Shown here in pieces: positions 1-18,800 of a DNA stretch of 57,660 bases; the stretch's first letter is position 1; every line of letters begins with the position of its first letter. The translations under genes were made by a program, and so were the position numbers. The stretch comes from Lactobacillus hamsteri DSM 5661 = JCM 6256. GTDB taxonomy: Bacteria; Bacillota; Bacilli; Lactobacillales; Lactobacillaceae. The notes beneath the pieces are model-generated. The model saw nothing but the letters and a program-made list of their open reading frames with translations. It was not told where the DNA came from and searched no databases. The stretch covers positions 1 to 57,660 of the forward strand of contig NZ_BALY01000009.1 in assembly GCF_000615445.1 (NCBI RefSeq), read 5' to 3'.

Positions 1-1026
1 CTTAAGGTCTGAAAGTTGCTTTGTAGATAAATATTGCTTAACAGAAGAAAAAATAATTTGAATACAAAATTTATTGTCAATCAACTCATTTAGTGAGTTA
101 CCCTTCCTTTTATCTTTATTTAACTTATTAATATACTCATTCGCTTGTATATGCGTAAACGGAATAGGATTAGTAAAATTTATTTTTCTCTTTAAACAAA
201 AATCAAATTTTTCATTTATTTTTTTGATTAAATTCGCCCTATATATATTGAGTGTATCATTATCATTTTTTAATGAAGCTACATCAGCAATATCATCAGG
301 TTTAGTCTGTCTTCTTTTTTCGTCCGGATTTGAATTAATTAGTACGTTTTTATCATTTTCGTTTGCTAACTCTAGATTTTTATCTTTAAATTTATATAAA
401 GTCTCATAACCCTTTAAATCATTTTTATTACTAATTGGATAAAATGCTGTCTGTCCCCAGTAAAGATAAGGCACTGTATCTCCATTCGGCATCTTATAAT
501 TTCCAAAATAATAATTAATAAATTGATAACTTTCAATCTGATTTATTGTAGGAGACAGATGTTTACGTAATAAATAAAAATTCCCCAGTTTGCCAGAAGA
601 AACTACATCATAACTACTTGGCCTGTAATTCGCTAACATATTAAGCAAAACGTTTAATTGCTGGTATGGTTTAAGATCTTCAATTTTTTCTGGGATAATT
701 TGAAAGATAATTTCATTACTTTTATCTTTATTAAAATCATCTAATGCTTTTTGAAGTTCTTCAAGAGTCATAGAATTACTACGTTCAAATATTAAATGAG
801 TTCTAGTCCCACCATCGTTTGTTTTCGAAGAATATTCACCAATTAATTTATCACGTAAAATATCATCAACAATAAAATGTTTTCTAAAAATAAATTTTAC
901 TTTTCCATCATAAATTGTTTTAATATTATACATTTCAAATTCTTTATTGAATTTATCTTCATCAAGTAAAAAATCAACTGTATTTAAAGGTATATCAGGA
1001 TGGCTTTCTTTTACGTTAATTTCCAT
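1..1026 (-). CDS. Unknown protein, third gene of helicase cassette (3' end outside window)
   Basis: An open frame runs from ATG at 1026 to the window edge without a stop, giving 342 N-terminal residues; its end is not in the window. It starts MEINVKESHPDIPLN and is rich in Lys, Asn, Asp and Ile, with no signal peptide or membrane segment. I do not recognise the family and see no clear nucleotide-binding or nuclease motif in the visible part. It lies 17 bases after the 138-residue nuclease-like frame and is co-oriented with the large helicase, so the three are probably one transcript. The ribosome site is a modest GAGAAG 8 bases before the ATG. From its neighbours it may be a partner subunit of a defence-type helicase-nuclease, but that is inference only. 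Confidence 0.7.
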   Translation of the reverse strand, partial: MEINVKESHPDIPLNTVDFLLDEDKFNKEFEMYNIKTIYDGKVKFIFRKHFIVDDILRDKLIGEYSSKTNDGGTRTHLIFERSNSMTLEELQKALDDFNKDKSNEIIFQIIPEKIEDLKPYQQLNVLLNMLANYRPSSYDVVSSGKLGNFYLLRKHLSPTINQIESYQFINYYFGNYKMPNGDTVPYLYWGQTAFYPISNKNDLKGYETLYKFKDKNLELANENDKNVLINSNPDEKRRQTKPDDIADVASLKNDNDTLNIYRANLIKKINEKFDFCLKRKINFTNPIPFTHIQANEYINKLNKDKRKGNSLNELIDNKFCIQIIFSSVKQYLSTKQLSDLK

Positions 1027-1043
1027 AGTTATTTTCTTCTCTC

Positions 1044-1460
1044 TTAAAGTTGCATATTATTAACTTTATTGAAAAAGTTAATTAAATCATTTTTATATCG
1101 ATTATTAATACCAAAAAGAGTATTATTTTTTAAATCGAAAAGATATGGTACTTCAGTTACTCTTACAGCTGGCAAATTTTCCCATTGTTGAATTGAATAT
1201 CTAATCTTAACATTAGGATCTGGATTTTTCTGAGCTAAATTAATCAAAATATAATTAATTCGGTTAAATCCTAAATCGACTAATTTCTTAACTTTGTAAT
1301 ATCTACGTCTATAATATTCGTCAGCCTTAGGCCGAGATTCCCAGAATTTTACATCGTAAATATTAAGAACATCTTTTGTTGAATTAGTATCAGCAAAATC
1401 TCCTATTTCTTTGCAATCAGCAAGTTTGCCATCTAAGAATTCAGGATTTGTATAGTCCAC
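1044..1460 (-). CDS. PD-(D/E)xK nuclease-like fragment, probably displaced C-terminus of the helicase
   Basis: 138 residues, starting at a GTG that shares its first G with the TAG stop of the helicase. Visible motifs are GDFAD followed about 12 residues later by IYDVKFWES, i.e. a D...DxK arrangement as in PD-(D/E)xK nucleases, then a basic helix (RRRYYKVKK). The conserved Glu helix that normally precedes this motif is instead the last visible helix of the upstream helicase (FGEIATQYIFEH). One extra T in the T run at 1461-1463 would fuse the two frames into about 1428 residues, reading through QFILVDYTNPE. I therefore see this as the nuclease half of a helicase-nuclease, split by a frameshift that is real, programmed or a sequencing error. 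No good independent ribosome site precedes the GTG. Confidence 0.6.
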   Translation of the reverse strand: MDYTNPEFLDGKLADCKEIGDFADTNSTKDVLNIYDVKFWESRPKADEYYRRRYYKVKKLVDLGFNRINYILINLAQKNPDPNVKIRYSIQQWENLPAVRVTEVPYLFDLKNNTLFGINNRYKNDLINFFNKVNNMQL

Positions 1461-4400
1461 TAAATGAATTGCTTCACGCCTAGTTCGTTTATTTTATGTT
1501 CAAAAATATATTGAGTTGCAATTTCTCCAAATGCACCAAGCATCATCATATATATTGATGGATTAAGAAGGTATGTGGCTTTTTTGCCAAAATTAGTAAA
1601 CATTGGTACTTTACTTAATAAAGTATTTTCGAATTCGGTATCGCTTGAATCTTTATTTCGATTAATCAATTCTTTACTAAGAAGATTTATTTCTTCTTGA
1701 TTTAAAAAATCGATTGGCTTTATTGTTTGATAATATTTCTTCAAGCCATCAACATTATTTAATATTGTTGCCATACGATTATTCTCACTCAGATCAATTT
1801 TAATAATCTGATTTTTATTTTCTTTGAGTTCTGGTGAATTCGCATCCCAAATAATTTTTTTATATTCTTCATGATGAGCAAAATTATCTAAGTTGCTATT
1901 AGGATTATTAGTAGTCACATAATAGCAATTAACAGGTTCAGGTGCTTTAATATATGCAAAATGCAGCCATGATGCAAGACGTGAGTCACTATTCAATTGA
2001 CTAGAATTTTGCAAAGTAGCTAAGTATTCTTGCATACACTGATTTTCTTTTTCATCTAAAATTGGTTGTTGCAATATAACACTACGGCAACGATCATATG
2101 CAAGCCAAAATTTCGGAGCATTTTCTCCAACTTTACTTTTAATTTGTTGTGCTTTTTGTAGTGACTCGTGGATGATAAACATATTATTTTCTTCGTCCAT
2201 AGTTGTTAATTCTGGCAAATCATCAATAGTTAATGAACCAAAGCTATTAACTAAGCTTTCTTCCAATGCTGTCAAAATCGGGTATTGTTTGCCGCTATAT
2301 TCCTTATTCCCATATTCTTTAAAATTCGTCTTCTTCTCAATTTCTGGATCAAAGAAAATTAATTGCTTCAAACGATTATCAGTACGATTCAATCGTCCCA
2401 AAGCTTGCGCTATAATTGCCGTACTTGAAGCTCGTGCACCTCTAGTTTTTGTATAACCAATATATTTAGCATAATCATCATATTCTTCATTTTCACCAAA
2501 AATATCATTCATCCATGAACCTCGTTGCAAAATTCTTCGAATTTCTGCTAAATATTGCTTTCTAGCTAAATTTCCAAACCAAGAAAGACGATTAAAACTA
2601 ACAGCTGATTCCAAAATAGCAAGTGTACGCTCTTCAAAATTTTGAGTTGGTTTAATTTGGTTCGGTGAAGTAACAACATTGGTTACATGAGAAAGATATA
2701 TTGCATCCCAATCTTTACGATCTTCTTTTGGACGTTCACCCAAATTCAGATCAACAACTTTATCCTTAATTTCACTTATATCAGGAATCTTATAATCAAT
2801 ATTTTGTCCATTTCCCATAGTGGCATAGGTTGAAATCACTATGCGCATTCGACCTTTTTCCAGACTATTTATTACTTTTTCTACATTTCCATTATTAAAA
2901 TCTTTTGAATCCCAAAAATTAATTAGTTGGTCATCATAATCGCCTTTTTTAGCAACCAGTGGTAATGAATATTTATGCTGCCTAATATAATAACTAACAA
3001 TATTGTTTAATGCCTGCATTTGACTACCATTGATCTTGGCATTTATTAAGCATAATAATGAACGATATTCAATATGTGATTGATGGTAGTTGATAAACCT
3101 AATAATAGATTGCAATAAATAAAGATGCGGTATCAAGTGTGCTATTTGTGGATCATCTGCATACTCTTCATTAATTTCCTTAAAGGACAGTCCCCAAATA
3201 TAACTATTATTATCGAAATGTATATCTAAAAAATTATTAATATTATCAGCTAATTTTGCATTATATAAGCATATGTCTTTTTCATCTAAAATATCGTCAA
3301 TTACATCGTGCAAAATTTCATTTTTATTTGCAGTAACATAATCCATAAATTTAAACGCTACAGGCATTATTTGTTTTTTCTGCTCAGTGAGCAATTTTCT
3401 AAACATATCTAAAAGTTTTTCGTCGGTTTGATTAATATAATGATTATTAAGATGGGCCTGTAACCAAAAGCGTGAATAATTATTAAAATCTTCTGCTAGA
3501 TCGCCTGTTGCATCCAATGCAAAAATTTTCATTTTTGTCGCCATATCAGCCACAATACGGTCACTAGTATTAGGAATCTGCATCCATTTAATACTTACAA
3601 AATTATCACGATCAACTTCAACCACATAAAAATTTATTCCTTGCGTAAATAAATCTTCATCATAAGACTTATGAAGTGAAACATTTAAATTTGTTTGATA
3701 AATTTTATTAAAAATCTCATAAGCCTTAGTTTCATTGCCTTTATGAACAAATAAATTACGAACTAACCATCTAATATCACCGTCATGCTTTTTATTTTTA
3801 TTAAAGGCAGTTACAGATAAATTCCATACTGAAGAAATTAATGCATTTCGCAATTTTGGAAGTAACCAAGATACGCTAATATAACGATCATTATTATTTT
3901 TCTTTTTTAGTTCTTGCCTAATTTTCTTAATTCTATTAATTTTTTCTTTTTTATCCGTAATATCTTCAAAACTGCTCCCAATATCAATCAATACGTTAAA
4001 ATGTGTTTTATTATTATTTTTAGTATCAATAAGATAGCGTAAGGATCCGCTTGAATTACTCTCCTGTATAGAAAATTCTGGTGATGAAGCAAACATGGTT
4101 CTATTACGTTTTAAGCTATCATCAGGATGTAAGGCATACTGCAATTTATATTTTTTAAATATCTTAGTGATAGGAGCTATTATTTTTCTTAATTTCTTCT
4201 TAGTACTCTCTGGATCATCTGCAATTATTCCCGTTTCCAACTGTGATTTTGAAAGATCATAAATTATTGAACAGGCTAATATCAAATCATTGTCAACAAT
4301 AGCATTTTGATTAATCATAGATTGAATATCAGACTGTGTTTTTGAACTTTCATCTAAGAAAAGCATCGCTCCATTTTTGTTTATTTTAGGAATAACATCA

Positions 4401-5329
4401 TATAAATGTATCTGTGAGGACATTATCATATTATTTGGATAAACCAACTTAGAGATAGTAACCATATTTACTGGATAAATAGCCAGTCCTAAAGCTGAAT
4501 AAAGCAAGCGCACAAGCTTAAAATTTTGAAAACAATATACTAATTGCTGATCAAGATAATTAATCTGAATGTGATCTCGTAAATTTTTAAGCGAATATTT
4601 ACAGATTGACTCTTGATCCAATTTTTTAGAAAACGCCATGTATGGTCCATCATAATTGCCATTAGTCAATTGATTTACCATCATTGCCTTAGTAAAAATC
4701 AAACGAAGTATTTTATTCAACTCTGATCTATTGCTATTTTTACTTCGTTGAATTTGTTGAATCATTTGACCATAAATATTTTGACCAGATTCTTCATTCT
4801 TGGAAGTTAAGCTACTATAATAGCGAATATTTTCACTATATTTATTCAGAACATCAAGCAATTTATCATAAATTTTCTTAGCTATTATTTTTTGATTGTA
4901 CAGTTTTCGAAATTCGGAAATAATCTCTTTTTTAGTTTGAGGGACTTGCCACGAATCACTAAAGTTTTTTTCATCTTCTATAACGGAATAAATACGATGA
5001 ATATATTTTTTCTTATTTCTTTTTTCTAATGCTGATATTCGTGGGAAATCATAACTATTATTACCAGGAAGATTGTTCTTTTTAGATGTAGTAAAAACCA
5101 CAGTACATGGTTTCATATTATCTTTTTCAATCATATCTGCAACTTTTTCATCACAAATTTCTTTAGAAGCCATGGACTTACCAGCACCTGTTAATGGCGA
5201 TAATTGAATTAAGCCGTAATGTTGACCATCTTTATTTATATCAAGTTTATCCAGTTTTTCATTTAAATTGAGCATTTCTTTTTTAATTTCATTTTTAAAT
5301 GAATCTGGGGAAAATATTTTGTTATTCAT
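1460..5329 (-). CDS. Large SF2-like helicase/ATPase, putative defence protein
   Basis: 1289 residues. The Walker A motif SPLTGAGKS is at residues 44-52, a Walker B-like MLFLDESSK at about 320-328, a TYATMGNGQNID segment typical of motif V, and a motif VI QALGRLNRTDNR near residue 975. Together these make a superfamily 2 helicase with a very long insertion between the two RecA-like halves. The C-terminus ends in a helix (FGEIATQYIFEH) that looks like the start of a PD-(D/E)xK nuclease domain continued in the next frame. It is not a recognisable Cas3, HsdR or DISARM protein to me. It is the first gene of a three-frame operon and begins with a good AAAAGG ribosome site. The promoter carries a SOS-box-like dyad. 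The role (nucleic-acid translocation and cleavage against invaders) is inferred. Confidence 0.75.
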   Translation of the reverse strand: MNNKIFSPDSFKNEIKKEMLNLNEKLDKLDINKDGQHYGLIQLSPLTGAGKSMASKEICDEKVADMIEKDNMKPCTVVFTTSKKNNLPGNNSYDFPRISALEKRNKKKYIHRIYSVIEDEKNFSDSWQVPQTKKEIISEFRKLYNQKIIAKKIYDKLLDVLNKYSENIRYYSSLTSKNEESGQNIYGQMIQQIQRSKNSNRSELNKILRLIFTKAMMVNQLTNGNYDGPYMAFSKKLDQESICKYSLKNLRDHIQINYLDQQLVYCFQNFKLVRLLYSALGLAIYPVNMVTISKLVYPNNMIMSSQIHLYDVIPKINKNGAMLFLDESSKTQSDIQSMINQNAIVDNDLILACSIIYDLSKSQLETGIIADDPESTKKKLRKIIAPITKIFKKYKLQYALHPDDSLKRNRTMFASSPEFSIQESNSSGSLRYLIDTKNNNKTHFNVLIDIGSSFEDITDKKEKINRIKKIRQELKKKNNNDRYISVSWLLPKLRNALISSVWNLSVTAFNKNKKHDGDIRWLVRNLFVHKGNETKAYEIFNKIYQTNLNVSLHKSYDEDLFTQGINFYVVEVDRDNFVSIKWMQIPNTSDRIVADMATKMKIFALDATGDLAEDFNNYSRFWLQAHLNNHYINQTDEKLLDMFRKLLTEQKKQIMPVAFKFMDYVTANKNEILHDVIDDILDEKDICLYNAKLADNINNFLDIHFDNNSYIWGLSFKEINEEYADDPQIAHLIPHLYLLQSIIRFINYHQSHIEYRSLLCLINAKINGSQMQALNNIVSYYIRQHKYSLPLVAKKGDYDDQLINFWDSKDFNNGNVEKVINSLEKGRMRIVISTYATMGNGQNIDYKIPDISEIKDKVVDLNLGERPKEDRKDWDAIYLSHVTNVVTSPNQIKPTQNFEERTLAILESAVSFNRLSWFGNLARKQYLAEIRRILQRGSWMNDIFGENEEYDDYAKYIGYTKTRGARASSTAIIAQALGRLNRTDNRLKQLIFFDPEIEKKTNFKEYGNKEYSGKQYPILTALEESLVNSFGSLTIDDLPELTTMDEENNMFIIHESLQKAQQIKSKVGENAPKFWLAYDRCRSVILQQPILDEKENQCMQEYLATLQNSSQLNSDSRLASWLHFAYIKAPEPVNCYYVTTNNPNSNLDNFAHHEEYKKIIWDANSPELKENKNQIIKIDLSENNRMATILNNVDGLKKYYQTIKPIDFLNQEEINLLSKELINRNKDSSDTEFENTLLSKVPMFTNFGKKATYLLNPSIYMMMLGAFGEIATQYIFEHKINELGVKQFI

Positions 5330-5371
5330 TTTTCCACGATCCTTTTCTAAATGTGGTATTTATTCCTGCAC

Positions 5372-5431
5372 CGAATATTTGTTCTCGAGAACTTACATTC
5401 GAGTATACACTTATTTTTCACAATACACAAA
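5372..5431 (-). promoter_or_regulatory. Promoter with SOS-box-like dyad upstream of the helicase cassette
   Basis: On the minus strand a TTTGTG (-35, 5426-5431) is 18 bases from TATACT (-10, 5402-5407). Directly downstream lie two half-dyads, 5388-5401 and 5372-5385 (plus strand agaacttacattcg and cgaatatttgttct). They meet in a perfect 12-bp palindrome, gttctcgagaac. Each half matches the Firmicute LexA box CGAAC-N4-GTTCG at 8 of 10 fixed positions. Overlap with the transcription start region suggests repression by LexA or a cassette-specific regulator. Confidence 0.55.
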
Positions 5432-5480
5432 CATATTTTCGGGATTTGATTATTTCTATTAAAATATTTTTTAAAATTAA

Positions 5481-5509
5481 AAAAGCTACTCAAAACTTGA
5501 GTAGCTTTT
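5481..5509 (-). terminator. Rho-independent terminator after the DUF438 gene
   Basis: Perfect 13-bp stem (aaaagctactcaa and its complement) with a 3-base loop, 4 bases after the stop of the hemerythrin-PAS gene. The flanking A/T runs allow it to work on both strands. Confidence 0.85.
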
Positions 5510-5513
5510 ATTC

Positions 5514-6722
5514 TTACAAACTCTTCTTTTCACCCGTCAGTTGCTTAATCTTGGTAATATCTTCGGCCACTTCTAAGCAACCTAAATATTTACCTTCTTC
5601 ATCCCTAACAGCATAATACCTTAAATACAACGTTTTTCCCATCTTTTTTGGAGTGAACCAATATTCAATTTCATCACGCTTGCCTGTATGAAAATCATTA
5701 AAAATTTTCTCAATCAACGGCCTACTAGTTGCCGTATGACATGAAAAAACGGAATTTCCAATTGCATTTTTAGAATGCGGATAAATATTAGCGCCACCAC
5801 CGAAGTAAGCAACCTTATCATTTTCATCAATAAAAGTTAACGCAAACGGCAATAAATCTAAAATTGCGGAAAGTTGCTCTAAGTTAAGCGCACCTTCCTT
5901 AAAATTAATAAAGAAAGAACGCAAATTATTAACCGAAATTGGTCTTTCTGCTCTTTTTGGCAAATCAGGTTTCCAATTCATTGGTGGATTAATCAAAGTA
6001 TAGCCAATTTGCGTTTCTTCTTGCTTAACGTTATACCAATCTTCTGGAGTAGCAACTTCATCAATCATCGGAATCATGATTTTTTCCTCTTTAAAAATCA
6101 TTTCCAATACTTCATGGCTTGCTTTTTCAATTGTATCTTTAATTTTGTCTTTATTTGCCGGGATTTCATCTACTGCATTTTGAGCATTCCTAATATAACC
6201 ACGAATTTCATCGTCAACGCCCCACATTACTTGCGGTGGTGCAGTAATATCATATTTATTCATTAATGGAAAAAGCGAAACTTCTTTTCGAGCATAATGC
6301 TTATCAAGCGTTGCTAAATCAGCTAATGCATGCTTAATTTTATCCAAAGTAGAATCATAATTTGTTTCTTCCCACTTTTTTAAATTAGGAAGTAAATAAT
6401 CTTCGATTAATGACTTAATAACGACATTTTCTTGTTTAATCGTATATACGGGATGCCCTGGAATTAAAAAATCTGGATTTTCATCATTTTCCTTAATACT
6501 GCCTTTAAAGACATCGGCATGAACATTGCACAAATATTGAATTTGTCGTGGATCAAGTCCTTGAGCAATCAATTCACGCTCAGCTGCCGTAATTTCTGCA
6601 ACATCTACCTGATCAAATTCTTTTTCAAACATTTTTTTAGCAGTTGAAAAATCGCCACCATCCTGAATAAAATGCAAAATTTTAAGAATTGCATCTTGGC
6701 GTTCTTTACTCAAATTTTTCAT
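5514..6722 (-). CDS. DUF438 / hemerythrin / PAS domain protein
   Basis: 402 residues. The N-terminal 70 residues are a DUF438-type helical domain, followed by a hemerythrin HHE-type four-helix bundle at about 85-240 (metal-ligand-like segments HYARKE and SHEVLEMIFKEEK), and a C-terminal PAS domain at about 275-395 (FALTFIDENDKVAYFGG ... YLGCLEVAEDIT). Proteins of this build sense or handle O2, NO or heme and can deliver iron for Fe-S repair; the exact ligand cannot be told here. Its ATG overlaps the stop of the DUF59/DUF1858 gene by one base, so the two are translationally coupled. Placement behind the anaerobic ribonucleotide reductase genes fits a role in redox or NO stress. The end is a strong terminator. 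Confidence 0.85.
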   Translation of the reverse strand: MKNLSKERQDAILKILHFIQDGGDFSTAKKMFEKEFDQVDVAEITAAERELIAQGLDPRQIQYLCNVHADVFKGSIKENDENPDFLIPGHPVYTIKQENVVIKSLIEDYLLPNLKKWEETNYDSTLDKIKHALADLATLDKHYARKEVSLFPLMNKYDITAPPQVMWGVDDEIRGYIRNAQNAVDEIPANKDKIKDTIEKASHEVLEMIFKEEKIMIPMIDEVATPEDWYNVKQEETQIGYTLINPPMNWKPDLPKRAERPISVNNLRSFFINFKEGALNLEQLSAILDLLPFALTFIDENDKVAYFGGGANIYPHSKNAIGNSVFSCHTATSRPLIEKIFNDFHTGKRDEIEYWFTPKKMGKTLYLRYYAVRDEEGKYLGCLEVAEDITKIKQLTGEKKSL

Positions 6723-7303
6723 TATTCAATCACCTTATAGCCTTTATCTTCAAAAGCCTGTTTAATTTTGTTCAAATCAAGCTTCATGGCTTGTGCGCCT
6801 AATGGAACCGTCATTACTCTACCTACAGTTTTAAGCAAACCAGGAATTTTAATTCTCGTAAAACCACACTCATACATAATTTGAACAAAATCGGGATATT
6901 CCTCAGCTAATTTTTTAATTGGTACAGAAAAGTCAATAACTTTTTCTTCATTACTACTTTCACCAACTTCTTCCGTAGATTTTTCGCCTTCAAGCATCCC
7001 TAACTGTTTCTTAGCAGCTTTCGTCATTCGCTCAGGCGACCACACTGGATACCAAACAAGTTTTACTTCGCAAGAATTAATACCATTAACTGATAAAACT
7101 GCTTTTTGAATATGATCTTGTAAATATGTAGAAAGCGGACAGCCACTGATTGTTAAAGTCATCTTAACTATTGCTTGATCACCTTCAATATCAATACCAT
7201 AAATTAAACCGAGGTTTACAACATCAACCTGCAATTCTGGATCGATCACGCCCTGTAATGCTGTCATGATTTGATCTACTAATTTTAAATTTGCTTCTTT
7301 CAT
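6722..7303 (-). CDS. DUF59 (MIP18/SufT-like) plus DUF1858 protein
   Basis: 193 residues from ATG 7303, chosen because TTGGAG lies 7 bases upstream; the longer frame to 7381 would run through a terminator and into nrdG. Residues 1-95 are a MIP18/DUF59 domain (VIDPELQVDVVNLGLIY and the Cys-containing TISGCPLSTY), a family used in Fe-S cluster delivery. Residues about 120-193 are a DUF1858 domain (VIDFSVPIKKLAEEYPDF ... YECGFTRI), the short domain also found at the N-terminus of ScdA/RIC iron-sulfur repair proteins. It is coupled to the hemerythrin-PAS gene. Together the pair resembles a split Fe-S repair/NO-tolerance system; this is inference from domain content. Confidence 0.85.
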   Translation of the reverse strand: MKEANLKLVDQIMTALQGVIDPELQVDVVNLGLIYGIDIEGDQAIVKMTLTISGCPLSTYLQDHIQKAVLSVNGINSCEVKLVWYPVWSPERMTKAAKKQLGMLEGEKSTEEVGESSNEEKVIDFSVPIKKLAEEYPDFVQIMYECGFTRIKIPGLLKTVGRVMTVPLGAQAMKLDLNKIKQAFEDKGYKVIE

Positions 7304-7320
7304 TATTTTTCTCCAATAAA

Positions 7321-7355
7321 AAAGGTAATTGTACTTATATTTTACAATTACCTTT
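7321..7355 (-). terminator. Terminator between nrdG and the DUF59 gene
   Basis: Stem of 12-13 bp (aaaggtaattgta and complement, loop of about 9) followed on the minus strand by TTTTTTATT. It lies 5 bases after the nrdG stop and just before the ribosome site of the DUF59 gene, so it probably attenuates rather than fully blocks read-through. Confidence 0.75.
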
Positions 7356-7359
7356 TCCT

Positions 7360-8073
7360 TCATCGAACTAATTTGTCCCAAATAACAATCTTACCAGCTT
7401 CAAGCGACTTCGGAACATCAATAATACGCTGATTGCTTGAGCCTCTAAATTGCAAAGTCAAATCTTTTTTAGCTTCCAAAAATCGTCCATCAACTAAAAT
7501 ATCGATTTTAGACAACATTTCTTTTTTATCAGGAGTCTCTTTTTGAAGCTCATCCCAAGTATAGCCAGACCAAGACCAAATATCCTTGCTATGGCCAAAT
7601 TCTTTCCTAATTCGATTGATTAACTTTAAGCAAACCCAGGTATTAAGAAACGGCTCGCCACCTAACAAAGTCAGACCCTGAACATAAGATTGCGACAAAT
7701 CAGTAATAATTTTATCTTCTAGTTCTTGAGTATACGGTTGACCGTAATTAAAATTTTGAGCTGCTAAATTATAACATCCAGGACAGTCAAACAAGCATCC
7801 CGAAACATAAAGACTGCAACGCACCCCTTCACCATCAACAAAATTAAAAGGTTTATAATCTGCGATTTTATGCAAACTCAAATCTTCCGCTTTCCATTCT
7901 TGAGGTTTAGGATTTTTAGGCAATCTTTTTTGTCTCAATAATTTTTTAGCATGCTCAACTTGTGGTTTATATTGATTGGCATCAACAAACATCGTATCAC
8001 CATCAATATTAACTTTGACCATGCTGTTGCGAATATCCGGTCCCTCTTGTTTATTTCTATCTTTCTCCGGCAT
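7360..8073 (-). CDS. nrdG: Anaerobic ribonucleoside-triphosphate reductase activating protein
   Basis: 237 residues from ATG 8073 (MPEKDRNKQEGPDIRN). The longer frame to 8199 lies inside nrdD and is unlikely. It is a radical-SAM enzyme that installs the glycyl radical on NrdD. The [4Fe-4S]/SAM motif CLFDCPGC has the expected Cx3Cx2C spacing, and a GGEP motif (TLLGGEPF) follows about 60 residues later. The N-terminus, about 80 residues before the cluster motif, is longer than in many NrdG proteins. The start overlaps the nrdD end by 17 bases, so the two are translationally coupled. Expected to act only under oxygen-free conditions and to be controlled by NrdR through the shared promoter. Confidence 0.93.
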   Translation of the reverse strand: MPEKDRNKQEGPDIRNSMVKVNIDGDTMFVDANQYKPQVEHAKKLLRQKRLPKNPKPQEWKAEDLSLHKIADYKPFNFVDGEGVRCSLYVSGCLFDCPGCYNLAAQNFNYGQPYTQELEDKIITDLSQSYVQGLTLLGGEPFLNTWVCLKLINRIRKEFGHSKDIWSWSGYTWDELQKETPDKKEMLSKIDILVDGRFLEAKKDLTLQFRGSSNQRIIDVPKSLEAGKIVIWDKLVR

Positions 8074-10467: not shown

Positions 10468-10890
10468 TTAGTTAGTCTGATCTTTTAATACTTTTCCAAC
10501 ATTAATAGTAGGTAAATTATAATTAGGAAATTCGTTAGAAGTCATTGATAGCGTAGAAATAATCGCTCTTATATATGGATACAATATTGCGACTGCATTA
10601 TTTCGTACTAGAGTATCTAATCCTACCTTCGTTTGATCTTCTTCATACTTATAAGTAAAAATACCAGTTAATGAACACTCTGCTTGAAACGGAACAGAAG
10701 TATTTTCAGTTGAACCCACTACTACATTTAAAGAAACGTTTATTTTATCTTCCTTTACATCAAAACTTGTATTTAAATTTGGCGTCATGTTTATAGATTT
10801 AGTCTTTAGATCAAATTTTTCATTTCTGGTATATATCATTTTATCAACTCTATATCCATCAAATTCTAAAACTGCCATATTATGCTGCAT
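10468..10890 (-). CDS. SecB-like chaperone of a toxin-antitoxin-chaperone module
   Basis: 140 residues (or 136 from the second ATG at 10878, 12 bases after the AGGAG that directly abuts the first ATG). The fold signature is that of SecB: a beta-rich middle with alternating strands (KINVSLNVVVGS ... VPFQAECSLTGIFTYKY), then the diagnostic ILYPYIRAIISTLS helix and a C-terminal EFPNYNLPTINV segment, matching LFPYARE...FPQLNLAPVNF of proteobacterial SecB. Most Firmicutes lack SecB, and solitary copies next to a toxin-antitoxin pair act as dedicated antitoxin chaperones, as with Rv1957 of Mycobacterium tuberculosis. It overlaps the antitoxin gene by 11 bases and ends in a strong terminator. Assignment is from motif reading; an alignment would settle it. 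Confidence 0.75.
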   Translation of the reverse strand: MQHNMAVLEFDGYRVDKMIYTRNEKFDLKTKSINMTPNLNTSFDVKEDKINVSLNVVVGSTENTSVPFQAECSLTGIFTYKYEEDQTKVGLDTLVRNNAVAILYPYIRAIISTLSMTSNEFPNYNLPTINVGKVLKDQTN

Positions 10891-11419
10891 CTCCTAATTC
10901 ATTAAACTCAGTAAAAACATTATTAGATAATTGATTATCGGAATCCTTATAATAGAAATTAACATTATAAGACGAATTCTTACTTACTTCATTACTTAAA
11001 TTTTCTTTTTCAAATTTTAATTCTTCTAAAAATGAAGAGGGATTATTTTTAACATTTTTGAATAAAATATCTTGGTATTTGGCTTGAACTCTATGATTAT
11101 TTTCAATTTGTGTTAACGTTGATGGACTAATTCCTAATGCATCAGCAAATTTTCTAACCGAAAAGCCTAAACTTTCACGTAAATTTCTTAATTCTTTTGG
11201 AGACATATATCCTTTTCTTTCACGATATGCATCGAAACTTCGATACACATTTTCCATTGGATTCTCAAAGTCTCCCCATAACTCGCCTTCACTATCACGC
11301 CAATAATGATTTACTACTAATAAATCAGTTTCATCTTTAACACATACTTTTTCGGGAATCCATACTTCAGTATACGTATCATAAGCATTTAATTCTGGAT
11401 TAAAAAAGTTTTTATTCAT
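10880..11419 (-). CDS. XRE-family antitoxin, probably chaperone-dependent
   Basis: 179 residues from ATG 11419, which has AGGA 11 bases upstream; the longer frame to 11455 would overlap the toxin gene. A central XRE helix-turn-helix is at about residues 72-125 (MSPKELRNLRESLGFSVRKF ... LGISPSTLTQIENN). The N-terminal part has no Cys pairs, unlike the zinc domain of classical MqsA. After the HTH is a tail of about 55 residues containing YNVNFYYKD and NNVFTEFNEL, an exposed hydrophobic/aromatic stretch in the place where chaperone-addiction sequences sit in TAC antitoxins. It is middle gene between toxin and SecB-like chaperone. It probably binds the palindrome upstream of the toxin gene and represses the operon. 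Confidence 0.78.
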   Translation of the reverse strand: MNKNFFNPELNAYDTYTEVWIPEKVCVKDETDLLVVNHYWRDSEGELWGDFENPMENVYRSFDAYRERKGYMSPKELRNLRESLGFSVRKFADALGISPSTLTQIENNHRVQAKYQDILFKNVKNNPSSFLEELKFEKENLSNEVSKNSSYNVNFYYKDSDNQLSNNVFTEFNELGDAA

Positions 11420-11435
11420 TTTAAAATCCTTTCTA

Positions 11436-11780
11436 TCATTTGTATGGCAACTCAACCTGGCGTTCTGCTTGGTGAATTGAAATCCACATTACTGTTCTTT
11501 CGGGTTTATCTTGAAACTTAAGATAACACTGTTGTCCAGAAATAACTAAACCAAATACCCAAATATTACCCGGTATTGGTGGAACATGATTATCAGGTTC
11601 AGGCCCTTTAGAATAATCACGCCAACTTAAAGTATCATAGATAATACCAAATACAGTTTCACCATCCATACCTAAAGCTGAAAGTGTTTGTAAATTTTTT
11701 CGGCGTGGAGATAAAACCCATAATTCTCTACGTAACCTAATACTACGTAGAATTTCCTCAATTTCTTCACGTGTAGCCAT
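11436..11780 (-). CDS. MqsR-like type II toxin (putative mRNA interferase)
   Basis: 114 residues. The pattern LSALGMDGETVFGIIYDTLSWRDYSKG ... (quoted here in part: LGMDGETVFGIIYDTL) followed by NIWVFGLVISGQQCYLKF resembles MqsR (LGLDFDGMCNVIIGLS ... VYRPRLVTGQVYLKI), a RelE-fold, ribosome-independent mRNA interferase. The similarity is by eye and moderate, so another RelE/HigB-like toxin family is possible. First gene of the three-gene operon, 16 bases before the antitoxin ATG, with a perfect palindromic operator 20 bases upstream of its ATG. Toxin first, antitoxin second, chaperone third is the order of known TAC loci. Confidence 0.65.
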   Translation of the reverse strand: MATREEIEEILRSIRLRRELWVLSPRRKNLQTLSALGMDGETVFGIIYDTLSWRDYSKGPEPDNHVPPIPGNIWVFGLVISGQQCYLKFQDKPERTVMWISIHQAERQVELPYK

Positions 11781-11940: not shown

Positions 11941-14900
11941 CTATTTATTCTTTCGCTTATCACCTCCCAAAATTAGCAATCCTGCTGTAGCGAGAAGTGC
12001 TAAGCCTACGAGGCCAGCTATATTCTTCTTTTCACCAGTTTGTGGTAAAGTCTTTACATCATTCTTAACGCGTTCAATCTTAGTTGAAACACCGTCTGTC
12101 TTGACTTCATTAATCTTCTTCGAAGTATGGCGGTCAATTGAGATGCCTTTATCAACTTCGCCACCTCTGTTATTCTTTTCAGTCTTAGTAGTCTTGCCGA
12201 CCTTCTTCTTATCAATCTTAATCTCAATATCACCTTCATCTTCACCATTGTCAGGTTCATAACCATCTGGAACGTTAGGAACATTTTGTGTTGGTTTCTT
12301 AGGATCAGTTGGATTATCTGGAATTGGATCCGAAGTTGGAGTTGAGCCTTGATCTTCTGGGTCTGCAGGTGGCACAGAATCTGGGGTATAGATTACAGTT
12401 TCAACGATATCATCATGATCATGACCAATATTCTTATTTGAAACCTGTAAACGATCTGGAGTATATCCAGAAATATGTGGTGAAAACTTAGTAATAAAGT
12501 CTTTTGGACCTTCCCAGGTATCTGAGATCACTTCGCCAGTCACCTTGTCAATCACCTTAGTCTCTTTAAAGTGAAGTACATCATGTACAGATTCTGATGC
12601 GGGGCTACCATCACTATAAATATATTTAATAGTCCGTTTTACATCATGTTGTAATGAATCCTTATCTGTACCGTCTGGATATTTAGGTTGCTCATCCTTT
12701 GGACGTGGATCATTAGGATTGATTGGTTCTCTCGGATGTCCAGGATTTTCAGGAGTAATAGTGACCATATCATGGAAGTAGTAGACGTTCACATCGGCGG
12801 CGTCCTTGCTTGGATCGCCGCTTGCTGATCCAACTGTCTTCCCACTTTGATCATCTTGGTGTTGAACAAGTGATGGAGCTGCCTTGTAGCCTAATTTAGT
12901 TAAATCAGGAGAATCAACTGCATCATAAGCACCTGAAATTACTGCCCATGAATTATCGTCGGTAAGTTTAGGATCAATCTTGCCATCTTGGCCTAAGTAG
13001 CCTAAGAATTTGCCATCAACCTTATCGTAAACAGCTGTACGGCCCCAGGTAATCGTTTGCTTCTTAGCGTCAACACCTGAAATTGCTGTGCCAGTTTCAT
13101 CATCCAAGTAATGAATTGTCCGGCTATGGCTTACTTGCGTTGCCTTTTGATCTTCCTTCTTAACATTGCCTGGATATTCTGGCTTATCTGGCGTTACTGG
13201 AACTACACCATGCTTTAAGTAAACATACTGATCACCTAAAGTATCATCAGCCGTTCCCATATCACTAGTGATTTTTTGCTTACCTAGTTTATCACCACTT
13301 GGATTAGAAACTAAAACATAACCTTCATCAGCATAGTTCCAAAGTAGTCTATTAGTTGCATCTTTAGTATCACCAATATAACTATTAATATTTTTAACTT
13401 CATGCTCAATTAAATCTTTACCACGAGTAGTAAAGTCAGAAGACTTATCAATACCATTTACATCAATATAGTGAATATTATATGCTCGATTGGCCTTAAT
13501 ATAAATTACCTTATTAGGATCATGAGCATCTAAATATTGTTTTAAATTTTTATCCTTAGCACTAGCTAGATATTTATAAGTACCATCTTTATTTTGTTCA
13601 TAGAATGCGTACCCTTCATTAATATGAGGGAGCACAACATCTTGCTTCTCCCAAGTGCCATAAGTGCCAGTTTCCTTATTAATATTATTAGTAAAGGAAT
13701 ATGGATCTTTTTGAGCGTAACCCAAGTCATGATCCTGACCATCAACATTAACTGTCTGATCAACTAAGCCAGATAAGTTTTTACCCTTTGCACCATCTTC
13801 AACAACATAAGTTACTGAACCTGGAACTTGCAGATTGTTGTCATAGTAAGTTGCTGAAGTAGACTCACCCTTTTTAACTGGCTTTGCAGGTGCTTGACTA
13901 TAGTGAGGAATGTTAGTAGTAATTCCAGTCCATGTACTACCATAGGTCCATTGCGGTTGACCAGCCATTGAACCACTTTTTACAGTTTTATAGTTAAAAT
14001 CTTGATTTTTATTAATTATGAAGAAACGAAGCTTAATCTGGTTTCCCTTAACATGATAAAGACCGGCACCAAATGTTCTTAATCCATCAGGATCATCTGA
14101 TTCAGAATTATCCCATTCTTTAAATAGATCATCAGTTAGATTTTTGTTTAGCTTAGGATCGTTTAGCACCTCAGAACTGTAATTAAATGTTATTTTAACA
14201 CCATCGTTAACACTATCAGCATATTCCCCATCTGCGTCAGCATTAAAATCACCTTTAAGATGCGGCTTAACAGAGGATCCCATCAATCGTGCTGGTTGAA
14301 TATTTTTCGAATCGAGAGAATGAACAGCTTCAATGTAATTACCATGGTTATTGAGAGAGAATGGTGTAAACCAAGCATCATCTTTATTAGAATCAAAGTT
14401 AATTTGGTTTCCCTGACTATCATAGAATGTGTATGTTACATCCACAGACACCCCAGAAAATTGAAAACCACGAGTTATATCATCGTAAACAACAACTGCA
14501 TGCTTACCATAATGTTCAGGACTAACACCCTTGTTAGGATTAAGTTGTGCTGTCCCCTTTCGTTCGAGGTTTGAAAGTGACATTACAACTTTCGTGATTG
14601 GTGTTCCTTGATAAGAGGAACCATGCAAATTATCAAAGGTTACATCAGCAAAATGATCAGCTATTTCACTGGTATTCTTACCGGTTTCTGCTGACTTAAA
14701 AACAATCGAATGGTAGGCCCCTTGAGGAGCAAAAGTACTTACACCTTGATCCTTATAATCATTATCATTGCCAGTTTCATATGTCAAAGTAGCTTGATAT
14801 TTAGAATCAATATCAACAGTAACCGTAGCATTATCATCAGATGAAATTGATAATGCTTGATTTAGATCGTTACCTGTTTTAATGACATCGCCAACTGGAA

Positions 14901-15737
14901 CCTCATCACCTTCACCAGGCTTTATCTCAACTATTCCAGTTTCTTTATTAATATTCTTTGGATCTTTTGGATCTACAACAGCAACTGTTAGAGGTTTTGA
15001 TTTATGGCGATCATCAAGAATCGGACCATTTTTTCCAAATTGAACACTCTGTGCATCATGAAGAGTTTTACGATATTTAATTAAAGCATCATTATAAGCT
15101 TTTACAGCATTTTCATAAGCTTTATCAGACTGTGTTTGTGCTTTTTGTTGGTCATCAATGGCTTTAATTAAATTACCAGCTTGTTTCTGATAATCTTCTG
15201 CCGCCTTTTGCTCCGCATTATTAGCATCCGTACCAGTAATTTCATGTGACTTCGTTTTAGTTACAGTAACATTACTATTTTGCGCTGCTTCTTTTTGTTG
15301 GTCATTTCGCTTTGCAAGTGCACTGTTTAAATCAGTAATAGATTGATTAGTTGTATCTTCATTAGAATTCAAGGATTGTTGCGATCCTTCAGAACCTCCC
15401 GACGTTCCAGCTTCAACTTTCGATTCAGCTAATGCTGGTTTACTTAATGAAGTATCTGCTGAACCATTCTTAACTTCAACCGTCTGCGAAGTCTCTGAAC
15501 CGCTTGGTATTAGTGGGTTAGAGGGCTCTCGTACCCCCCCGAAATTTCAGTTGATGCATTTTCATTTTCGGCATCATTTGTATCCGCCAATACGTGATTC
15601 GATGAAACAGTTCCTAAATATAACGTAGTACTCAATAAAACTGACGCAACACCAACACCCAATTTACGAATTCCATAGTGTGGCTTGCGTTCCATATTAG
15701 ATTGCATTTTATTTAAAAAATTATTTCTTCCTACCAT
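11941..15737 (-). pseudogene. LPQTG-anchored antigen I/II (GbpC-like)-MucBP adhesin, frame-shifted at a G7 tract
   Basis: Two frames make one adhesin of about 1265 residues. 15510-15737 encodes the YSIRK-type signal (YGIRKLGVGVASVLLS ... cleavage near VLADTN) and then runs out after TEISGG. 11941-15372 carries the rest in another frame, open back to the tract. One extra G in the G7 run (15534-15540) restores TEISGGVREPSNPLIPSG. In order: signal, Ser/Thr-rich stretch, Ala/Lys/Gln-rich helical segment (KAYENAVKAYNDALIKYRKT), GbpC/antigen I/II V-domain (FDNLHGSSYQGTPITKVV ... DVTYTFYDSQGNQINFD ... FGAGLYHVKGNQI), two or more mucin-binding repeats (RTIHYLDDETG, RTIKYIYSDGSPA), Pro-rich spacer, LPQTG, hydrophobic helix and Lys/Arg tail. 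Expected to bind mucins or glycoproteins at the wall. As written it cannot be secreted intact; phase-OFF, pseudogene or homopolymer error are the options. Confidence 0.85.
15534..15540 (-). repeat. Poly-G (G7) tract at the adhesin frameshift
   Basis: Seven C on the plus strand (G7 in the message) about 67 codons after the start of the adhesin signal peptide. Adding one G or removing two gives a full-length frame; removing one gives a stop within a few codons. A natural slipped-strand phase switch is possible. Confidence 0.8.
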
Positions 15738-15899: not shown

Positions 15900-18800
15900 C
15901 TATTTACGTTGTTTTCTGTTACCAGCTAAACCGAATAAACCAGCAATTGAGGCAAACACCAACCCAATTAAGCCTAATTTATTTTGCTTTTCGCTAGTTT
16001 GTGGCAATTCTGCTTGTTCCTTATCTGTAAAATGTACAGGATGAACTTTGTCTAAAACAACGTGCTTATTTACTGTTTCTGTTTTACCAATTACATCCCC
16101 GCCACGAACAGAACGTTTAGCATCAGCAGCCACCTTTTTAATTTGCTTAGCAACAGTTTTGTTATCTTCATAAACGGGCTTGCTATCTTTATGTTTTTCA
16201 ACATAAGTATCTTTTTCTTCGCTATTCTTTACCCAAGTAGGTACATCTGTACCTGGTTCGTTCTCAGAAGACGGATCGCCCGTTGGTGAGCCACCATTAT
16301 CATCGATATCACCATCGTCACCGTTATTGCCATTTTGCGGTCCATCAGAGTCGGGGGTATTTTCAGTATAAACTACTGTATACTCTTGAGCCTTTTCTTC
16401 TGGTTCCATTGGCGTTGCAGGAAGAATTTCCTTTTTACCGGCAGTATATCCTGGAACATCAGCACTCTTGATTGATATAAACGACTTATCCGCAATCCAA
16501 GGATTTAATTCAATCACTTCGCCAGTTACAGCATCAGTCTTGCCAGTACGCTTAAAGTGAATCGTTTGAACTTTATCGTCAGCAACTTTAATACCATTTT
16601 CATCTACATAATGAATAATAGCTGTAGCCTTACCAGTTAAAACAATGTCGCTGCCATCTTTATTCTTATCACCTGGCTTAGTAGGCCGTATACCGTGCTT
16701 TAAGTGGACGAGATATACTTGATCGCTATTGCTATCTTGATCAAGTATAATTGGCGTGCCATTAGTAGCATCAGATACCAATTCATAGCCTTTACCTATT
16801 AACTGATCAATCGTATTCACAGTAGAATAATCAATTTGCTCTCCAGACTTGCCGTTCAACATGCCAGAAGTTGAAATCACCTTATTTTCAGTATCATCAA
16901 CATATTGCACCATGGCACTTTGCTTGGTATGTCTCAAGTGAACTACAAAGAATTGTTCATACTTTGGATTGCCAAACTTGCTTGTAAAGCTCATGGCTTT
17001 ATCCTTATCGGCCGTCACAAATTGGTCTTGAATATCTAACGCATTATTTCTCGAAGCAGTTTCATCAGCTAAGTTAACAAATTCAAAACCTCTGCTTAAT
17101 AAGTATTCATTAAATGAATTTTGAGCATTACTAAAATCGATATTGCTATCAGTTACGCCGTGCATATCTTGTTTTTCAAGATCTGTCCCTAAATCATCAT
17201 CACGGAAAATTACATGTGCCGTTTGAGGATCTGCCTTATAAGTTACAGTGACATGAATATCCTTATCACCAAAGTTAACGGTTTGACCTGCTACATTTGT
17301 TTGATCTGGAGTATAGCCCTCGATTTTAGGAGTTGATACATCAGCAAAGTTTTGTGATGTTGCATTAGTCCATTTAGTCTTACCTGTTACCAAATCTTCG
17401 ATACCAGATTCAGTAAAGTGAACAGTTTGTGCATTATTAGACTGAGCCTGCTTACCATTCTCATAAACATAATGAATAGTCTTTTTGACGTCATCTGTAC
17501 GATTAACTTGCTTAATGGCATGAATAAAGTGGACTCTAAATAACTGATCACTATTGTCATCATTATCAAACTTCATTGACCTAATTTTAGTTTCATCACT
17601 ATTTGGAACTAAAACATAGCCCTCATTCATTAATGCTTCAATGGTCTGATTAGTATTATAATTTATCGTTCCGTCTGTTACTCCACTTAAGATAGGAGAT
17701 TGAGCAATTACTTTATGGTCAGTATCATCGATATATTCGACCATTGCTTCTTGGGCATCTGGCGTATAAGTAACGGTCTTAACAATATCAGTTGTTGTGC
17801 CATCAACATCAATTTCTGCAATTTCGGTTACTGGTTGACCATCAACAGTCGCAGTATATCCCTTTTTAACTGGAATACTTACAGCAGGAAAGCTTTGCTC
17901 ATCATAACTAACTGCTTTAGTTACTTTATCCCTTGTTCCATTAAGAGTTACAGAATTTTCATAAGTTAATCCAGGTAGCTTAGTACCATCTGAAAGCTGA
18001 TATTGAATTGTTTCTGTGACTGTTTTCACAACCGATTCAGTTCCATGCTTCAAATAAATTACATAGTCCTGATTATACTTACCACCTTGACCAACAAAAA
18101 TTCTTGGTCTTTCAGTAGTTGAAGCTACAACCCAGTTATCTTGTTCATAGTTCCAACCATTTGTATTCAAAAATGGCATCCCTGGTTGATCAGTATAAAC
18201 AATCGACTTTTCATGGCCTTCAATTACTTTAGCCTGTTCCTTATATAGATCATCATTTACACCTGTGACGTCTTTATAAATTACGTTAATGTGTGATTGT
18301 ACATAAGGTAAGACAAAAGTATAGCTAGTACCATCTTCAATAGTTTCAGGAACATTTACCAAAATGGTCTTTGCTAATTTATTAACTGTAATACCATTAT
18401 CAGCAATTTTTTGATGATTCTTTTCCGCATTAGTTGCAAAATATGAGTTATTTCCATCAAAGTAAGAAGTTTGACCATTTATTTCTTTCTTACTTGGAAT
18501 ATTGAAAATACTATTTTCTCCAAGGTTGCCTTCATACTTGGGCCTAAGGTCTTTTTCAAATTCTCCAACTTTATGTGTTACGAAAATTAATGCTGATTCA
18601 TTTGGCAACAATTTATTGCCATTTTTATCTACATATTTAATCGTCCGATTGATTGATTTATCTTTTGCCTTTAAATAAACGGTAAGATTAGTTTTATTTG
18701 GAGAACGAGAGCTAACGTAAGTCCAACCATTTGTATCATAATCCCATTTACCGTTTTCGTTTTTGGGATTTGTATCGACATTTAAATTATTCATTACCGA

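Follow-up and report, generated by a model that had tools for sequence, protein, structure and literature searches.

What kind of system is encoded at the very end of contig C73 of Lactobacillus hamsteri DSM 5661 = JCM 6256, where three open reading frames (ORFs) follow one another on the minus strand (Table 1)? The window, i.e. the whole stretch of DNA analysed, is 57,660 nt long (NZ_BALY01000009.1, positions 1–57,660 of the forward strand; assembly GCF_000615445.1, a 1.83-Mb draft of 81 contigs), and its position 1 is the end of the contig. A single transcript is likely for the three ORFs because the first two overlap by one base, the TAG stop of the long ORF running into the GTG on which the 138-aa ORF opens, and a gap of 17 bases separates the second from the third. 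A first-pass annotation, made from the letters alone, had described the locus as a possibly undescribed three-gene defence cassette composed of an SF2-like helicase, a PD-(D/E)xK-like nuclease and an unrecognised partner. Three ORFs are present, but they amount to two genes, one of which is broken across frames. The locus is most probably a divergent DdmDE-type antiplasmid operon, as judged by the homology of both of its proteins.

The helicase-nuclease

By its homology the product of the first ORF is a strongly diverged DdmD-like SF2 helicase. The 1289-residue ORF and its Walker A, DESS and QALGRLNR motifs were confirmed, so that Walker A, DExx and motif VI of an SF2 helicase are all present. 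Searched over 398 genomes of the phylum, the DdmD model of PADLOC matches in four, and 14 control genomes give no match; its single match in the genome of the window is this helicase (expectation value, E, 1.8e-5 in the whole-genome search). A hidden Markov model (HMM) of five DdmDs scores the window helicase at E 6e-27 and that of Lactobacillus sp. LL6, the nearest relative found, at E 3e-25, the top decoy among 2005, of which 2000 were shuffled and five reversed, standing at 0.31, and its alignment to the window helicase covers profile positions 14–1001 of 1117. With two further DdmDs from the genus the HMM of seven reaches E 9e-43 for the window helicase (best of 1204 decoys, 0.061). A profile built from the window and LL6 helicases alone finds the solved DdmD in the PDB (E 3e-8). 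Two loci, G298 and G274 (codes of this kind denote genomes), were taken as real DdmDE references because the C-terminal helicase-nuclease piece of G298 matches the PADLOC DdmD model at E 1.9e-38 and the solved DdmD at 1.5e-40, and the partner of G274 matches the solved DdmE (9iw3) at E 3e-272. A pPIWI-RE system, considered at first, was abandoned after PADLOC gave DdmD.

The nuclease of the first-pass annotation has its motif but is no separate gene. The 138-aa ORF aligns to residues 1332–1449 of the LL6 helicase-nuclease (34% identity, E 3e-19), and is therefore the C-terminal portion of the helicase, carried in a different frame. When aligned with six other C-termini, the catalytic E falls in the first ORF and D-V-K (D-x-K) in the second; the PD-(D/E)xK residues are all present in the window, divided over two frames, and belong to one protein in LL6. 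Helicase and nuclease motifs share a single frame in LL6, G867, G1101 and G828. On this homology the two ORFs are one broken gene and not two. As read, the sequence would yield a helicase whose nuclease is incomplete, perhaps alongside a free 138-aa fragment.

The partner

The third ORF is cut by the contig edge. Its remainder, which the first-pass annotation wished to see recovered, was found with the LL6 third protein (E 9e-25) at the start of contig C70 of the same genome, as a frame of 459 codons already open at the first base; the ends of C73 and C70 share nine bases, in frame. The window piece is 26% identical to the LL6 third protein (E 4e-9). Comparison of profile with profile, followed by the addition of relatives from the genus, made the kinship to DdmE visible, the first HMM having been insufficient. 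Against five DdmEs the partner profile gives E 1.1e-6 with a score of 61.5, which none of 200 column shuffles equals (best 28.2); with the reversed alignment the score is 15.1, and each of 19 further proteins from the window, entered as a single sequence, reaches 22.8 or less. On its own the LL6 protein scores 42.8, and the C70 piece 30.8. Once three DdmEs had been added, the HMM of eight gave E 3.8e-5 for LL6, 9e-4 for the window piece and 4e-3 for the C70 piece (best of 1204 decoys, 0.38), and hhalign of the partner with the same eight gave a probability of 96.9% and E 1.5e-10 over 628 columns. The third protein is thus, by these profiles, DdmE-like along its length and, through that homology, putatively Argonaute-related, and a DdmE homologue adjoins the helicase gene.

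Points against the DdmDE assignment

A number of results weigh against the assignment. Sequence identity to known DdmDE is low. A phmmer search of the PDB with just the window helicase does not retrieve DdmD. Protein scans with Pfam, PADLOC, NCBIfam and PHROG return chance-level matches for all three window ORFs (at E 1 the protein scan gives no PADLOC DdmD match for the window helicase, unlike the whole-genome search), and Pfam, PADLOC and NCBIfam leave the LL6 helicase-nuclease and partner unnamed. Helicase scores carry a high composition bias of about 70–76 bits, which is allowed for by the shuffled controls. The 138-aa ORF alone scores E 0.03 with the seven-DdmD HMM, close to the best decoy, so that its assignment depends on LL6. 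For the partner, the first HMM, of five DdmEs, missed it (window piece E 0.25, LL6 5.1, C70 piece 50, values no better than those of shuffles); the window piece alone scores 18.8 in the profile comparison, inside the control range; the profile of the window, LL6 and C70 sequences does not find the solved DdmE in the PDB; and the AlphaFold model of the LL6 partner, with a predicted local distance difference test score (pLDDT) of 31, is worthless as support for an Argonaute fold. Motif III, finally, reads DATG in the window and DALG in LL6, and SAT is absent from both.

Distribution and relatives

With the window helicase as query, 100 genomes including its own yielded three matches, namely the window's genome, a short fragment in G023 and one full-length relative, that of LL6 (NZ_VLLR01000002.1). 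There a DUF3800 gene is followed by a helicase-nuclease of 1474 aa and a third gene of 777 aa. Gene order for the two proteins is the same as in the window, with 28–29% identity in both (29% for the helicases); LL6 differs in that its helicase-nuclease is an intact single frame and in the DUF3800 gene 15 bases upstream. LL6 as query matched three of 395 genomes of the order: the window's own, G298 and G274. Within the genus 2/75 genomes were matched with LL6 and 7/75 with the G023 DdmD fragment. In all five genus regions fetched (G008, G026, G029, G060 and G047) ddmD and ddmE stand side by side, so that in these and in LL6 the helicase-nuclease is kept beside its partner; the loss of synteny in all relatives that would have spoken against a cassette was not seen.

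Elsewhere the searches were largely negative. The window helicase has no match in the plasmid or phage collections, nor do the LL6 helicase and partner in the plasmid collection; the G274 DdmE has one short match there, in a Nostoc plasmid. A first scan of the genome contigs with the window protein found nothing, and profile and protein scans found LL6 alone in the genome contigs and nothing in the viral contigs. The G274 helicase fragment matched none of 398 genomes class-wide, in a search without a positive control.

Genes related to the DUF3800 gene of LL6 (locus L005, 13097–14326, minus strand; E 2.5e-7) lie some 2 kb from ddmD in G023 and G026 and carry an in-frame TGA. DUF3800 was rejected as a fixed partner: the family occurs in 13/75 genus genomes, nine of these without a DdmD found by the LL6 or G023 query, it stands in an operon with ddmD in LL6 only, and it is absent from the window's genome.

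Comparison with known systems

Two described systems are close. The PDB entries 9ix4 and 9iw3 are DdmDE of Lactobacillus casei, the organism being given by the reference title in PMC12409362 and not by a structure search, and several PDB entries exist for DdmDE of Vibrio cholerae. The other is ApsAB of Escherichia coli sequence type 38 (ST38), whose ApsA belongs, according to PMC11096173, to the same broad ApsA/DdmD helicase-nuclease family. Like DdmDE, the operon has the helicase-nuclease gene ahead of that for the putatively Argonaute-like partner, together with SF2 motifs I, II and VI, PD-(D/E)xK residues at the C-terminus (over two frames in the window) and a partner homologous along its length. 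It differs in identity (the LL6 helicase is 18% identical to the G298 DdmD piece and 22% to the G274 piece), in protein length (1474 and 777 aa in LL6 versus 1190–1192 and 715 aa in solved DdmDE), in motif III (DA[TL]G versus SAT) and, in the window copy, in the frame break within the nuclease. Judged by homology, the operon is a diverged variant of the known DdmDE type and not an undescribed kind of cassette, although its branch has diverged so far that the four libraries used in the protein scans name none of the window ORFs; the claim of a helicase-nuclease defence cassette is supported by the same homology. The first-pass annotation had been unable to place the locus in Cas3, HsdR, DISARM, Hachiman or Gabija, and in agreement with this PADLOC and Pfam scans give no match to any such model.

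A tree of seven DdmDs groups the window with LL6, apart from the five others, with support of 100/100 and on a long branch (long branches were flagged). SAT is found at motif III in G867, G1101, G298, G274, G828 and G008 (SATG); it was not located in G026, and G047 lay outside the motif III comparison, which is our own and for which we know of no published membership criterion. One could go further and regard window and LL6 as a third ApsA/DdmD antiplasmid branch, set apart by an altered motif III and a DdmE-like partner of its own, in which the DUF3800 protein of the LL6 operon could make or trim guides and helicase and nuclease could be uncoupled, a nuclease-less form still destabilising plasmids by unwinding alone; such a scheme is improbable as a whole.

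An ApsAB-type system, with an ApsA-like helicase-nuclease and an ApsB-type Argonaute-like partner in a sister class of DdmDE, is very unlikely. According to PMC11096173, ApsA and DdmD form one continuum, and some distances in the window and LL6 proteins resemble ApsA: the spacing from Walker A to motif II is about 276 in the window and 285 in LL6 (about 200 in G1101), nearer to that of ApsA, with positions 218 and 532, and the nuclease DVK stands near residue 1435 in ApsA and at 1367 in LL6. Against this, the alignment of the partner to DdmEs covers almost its whole length; the Y-x3-K...QG MID motif of ApsB was found neither in LL6 nor in either piece from the window's genome (QG sought 8–40 residues after K); and ApsA, as there described, keeps SAT where the window and LL6 have DA[TL]G, the comparison with ApsAB being by published description only. 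That the first ORF encodes a DNA-repair helicase of the DinG/Cas3 type without a role in defence is scarcely credible, a weak match of LL6 to Helicase_C_2 (E 0.0043, below the curated cut-off) having to be set against the DdmD profile match over nearly the full length, the fused nuclease, the DdmE-like neighbour and the patchy distribution among genus genomes given above.

Origin of the frame break

Given a DdmDE-type operon, the break in its ddmD has still to be explained, and the two explanations weighed here concern the break only, their probabilities being separate from that of the identity of the operon. Reading back from the GTG, the second frame stays open for 11 codons, and there AIHL before VDYTNP parallels LQL before INYTDD in LL6. 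Since homology to LL6 begins upstream of the GTG, this codon is no original start and the frame changed within the 11-codon stretch. Probably this ddmD copy is impaired, or else the break is an assembly error.

That the break arose in sequencing or assembly and the actual gene is intact has somewhat less than an even chance. Besides the fragmentation of the draft, three other genes within the 57.7 kb are broken, which makes assembly error a serious possibility: an ATP-binding cassette (ABC) transporter ATPase at ~32100 and a GH36 alpha-galactosidase at ~39350 by frame changes, and an acetyl-xylan-esterase-like gene at ~48790 by a TGA nonsense codon in a frame that otherwise runs on. The three came to notice among 29 further window proteins scanned with Pfam, which is not a full survey, and point to an error-prone assembly or to local decay.

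Broken ddmDE copies are, however, common also in the separate assemblies of relatives, and real decay is therefore plausible. Seven of the ten Lactobacillales loci examined, that of the window among them, have a break in one gene or both; as different queries brought the loci up, the figure is a count and not a rate. In-frame stops occur in the DdmD of G029 (one) and G060 (three) and in the DdmE of G026 (one); the DdmD of G023 breaks off close to a contig end, at some 256 residues. A transposase gene interrupts the DdmD of G274, and transposase genes adjoin that of G298, the N-terminal part of which was not seen among ORFs of at least 120 aa in 13 kb; these transposases, recognised by eye, are presumably of the IS30 type. 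Both genes are intact as read in LL6, G008 and G047 (3/10), the last with a ddmE of 686 aa.

A real and functional split, in which a coupled TAG/GTG pair or a programmed frameshift would yield nuclease-free and nuclease-bearing DdmD, is very unlikely. The one-base overlap of stop and start would suit it, as would an intact 138-aa ORF with its catalytic residues kept. Opposed to it are the homology to LL6 that the second frame already shows ahead of the GTG, which leaves no ancestral start, the failure to find a slippery heptamer of the form X_XXY_YYZ within the 150 bases that end the helicase ORF, the three other broken window genes and the single frame of the motifs in the four relatives named above.

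Other features of the window

A terminator-like hairpin sits between the operon and the upstream nrdD, nrdG, DUF1858 and DUF438 genes; it is a consensus match only, the scan giving three sites in positions 1–8000 with 2.8 expected. The order nrdD-nrdG-DUF1858-DUF438 is kept in 5/5 of the relatives' regions, where none of eight tested C70 neighbours was located.

Table 1. Positions of the features discussed, in window coordinates unless another locus is named
Feature	Position	Strand	Basis
DdmD-like SF2 helicase with first part (catalytic E) of PD-(D/E)xK nuclease domain, 1289 aa (putative)	1460–5329	−	Profile matches, alignment to LL6
Second part of that nuclease domain (D-V-K motif), out of frame with the first; 138-aa ORF (putative)	1044–1460	−	Alignment to LL6
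DdmE-like (Argonaute-like) partner, N-terminal 342 aa, open at contig edge (putative); continues on G000:C70:1–1380	1–1026	−	Profile comparison
Walker A, TGAGKS (LTGAGKS in context)	5174–5191	−	Motif inspection
Helicase motif II, DESS (FLDESS in context)	4343–4354	−	Motif inspection
Motif III position, DATG	3503–3514	−	Comparison with other DdmDs
Helicase motif VI, QALGRLNR	2384–2407	−	Motif inspection
Nuclease catalytic E of GAFGE	1523–1525	−	C-terminal alignment
Nuclease D-V-K	1347–1355	−	C-terminal alignment
11-codon stretch open in both frames, site of frame break	1461–1493	−	Frame comparison
Terminator-like hairpin, 13 pairs, T-rich tail	5481–5509	−	Consensus match only
ddmDE copies with in-frame stops, truncation or transposases	Loci L041, L043, L044, L007, L012, L013		

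Farther along, positions 10468–11780 (minus strand) carry what is likely a toxin-antitoxin-chaperone module in a Gram-positive genome, with an unassigned 114-aa ORF, an MqsA-type helix-turn-helix protein (TIGR03830, E 1e-9, below the cut-off) and a chaperone that resembles SecB (Pfam SecB, E 9e-10). Two very large ORFs on the minus strand, of 1143 aa (11941–15372, LPQTGE near the C-terminus by eye) and 1823 aa (15900–21371), resemble surface proteins.

Proposed function and meaning

Gene content, homology of both proteins, motifs and the position of the break were obtained directly; guides, plasmid targeting, recruitment and cleavage are carried over from the family. DdmE is described in PMC12409362 as a catalytically inactive Argonaute that uses DNA guides and recruits DdmD; the autoinhibited dimer of DdmD comes apart, and DdmD translocates on the non-target strand and cuts. 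In PMC12904381 the names DdmD and DdmE are interchanged. By analogy, the DdmE-like third protein would load short DNA guides, bind plasmid DNA and recruit the DdmD-like helicase-nuclease, which would unwind along the freed strand and nick or degrade the plasmid. In ApsA, according to PMC11096173, helicase mutations abolish plasmid loss and a nuclease mutation has only a partial effect; by the same analogy, a DdmD that lacks the nuclease end might remain partly active.

The locus would extend DdmDE-type plasmid defence to a branch left unnamed, at the protein level, by the libraries scanned. Lactobacillus is a genus used in food and often carries plasmids. If a nuclease-less DdmD still works, the copy in the window would offer a natural experiment on the contribution of the nuclease.

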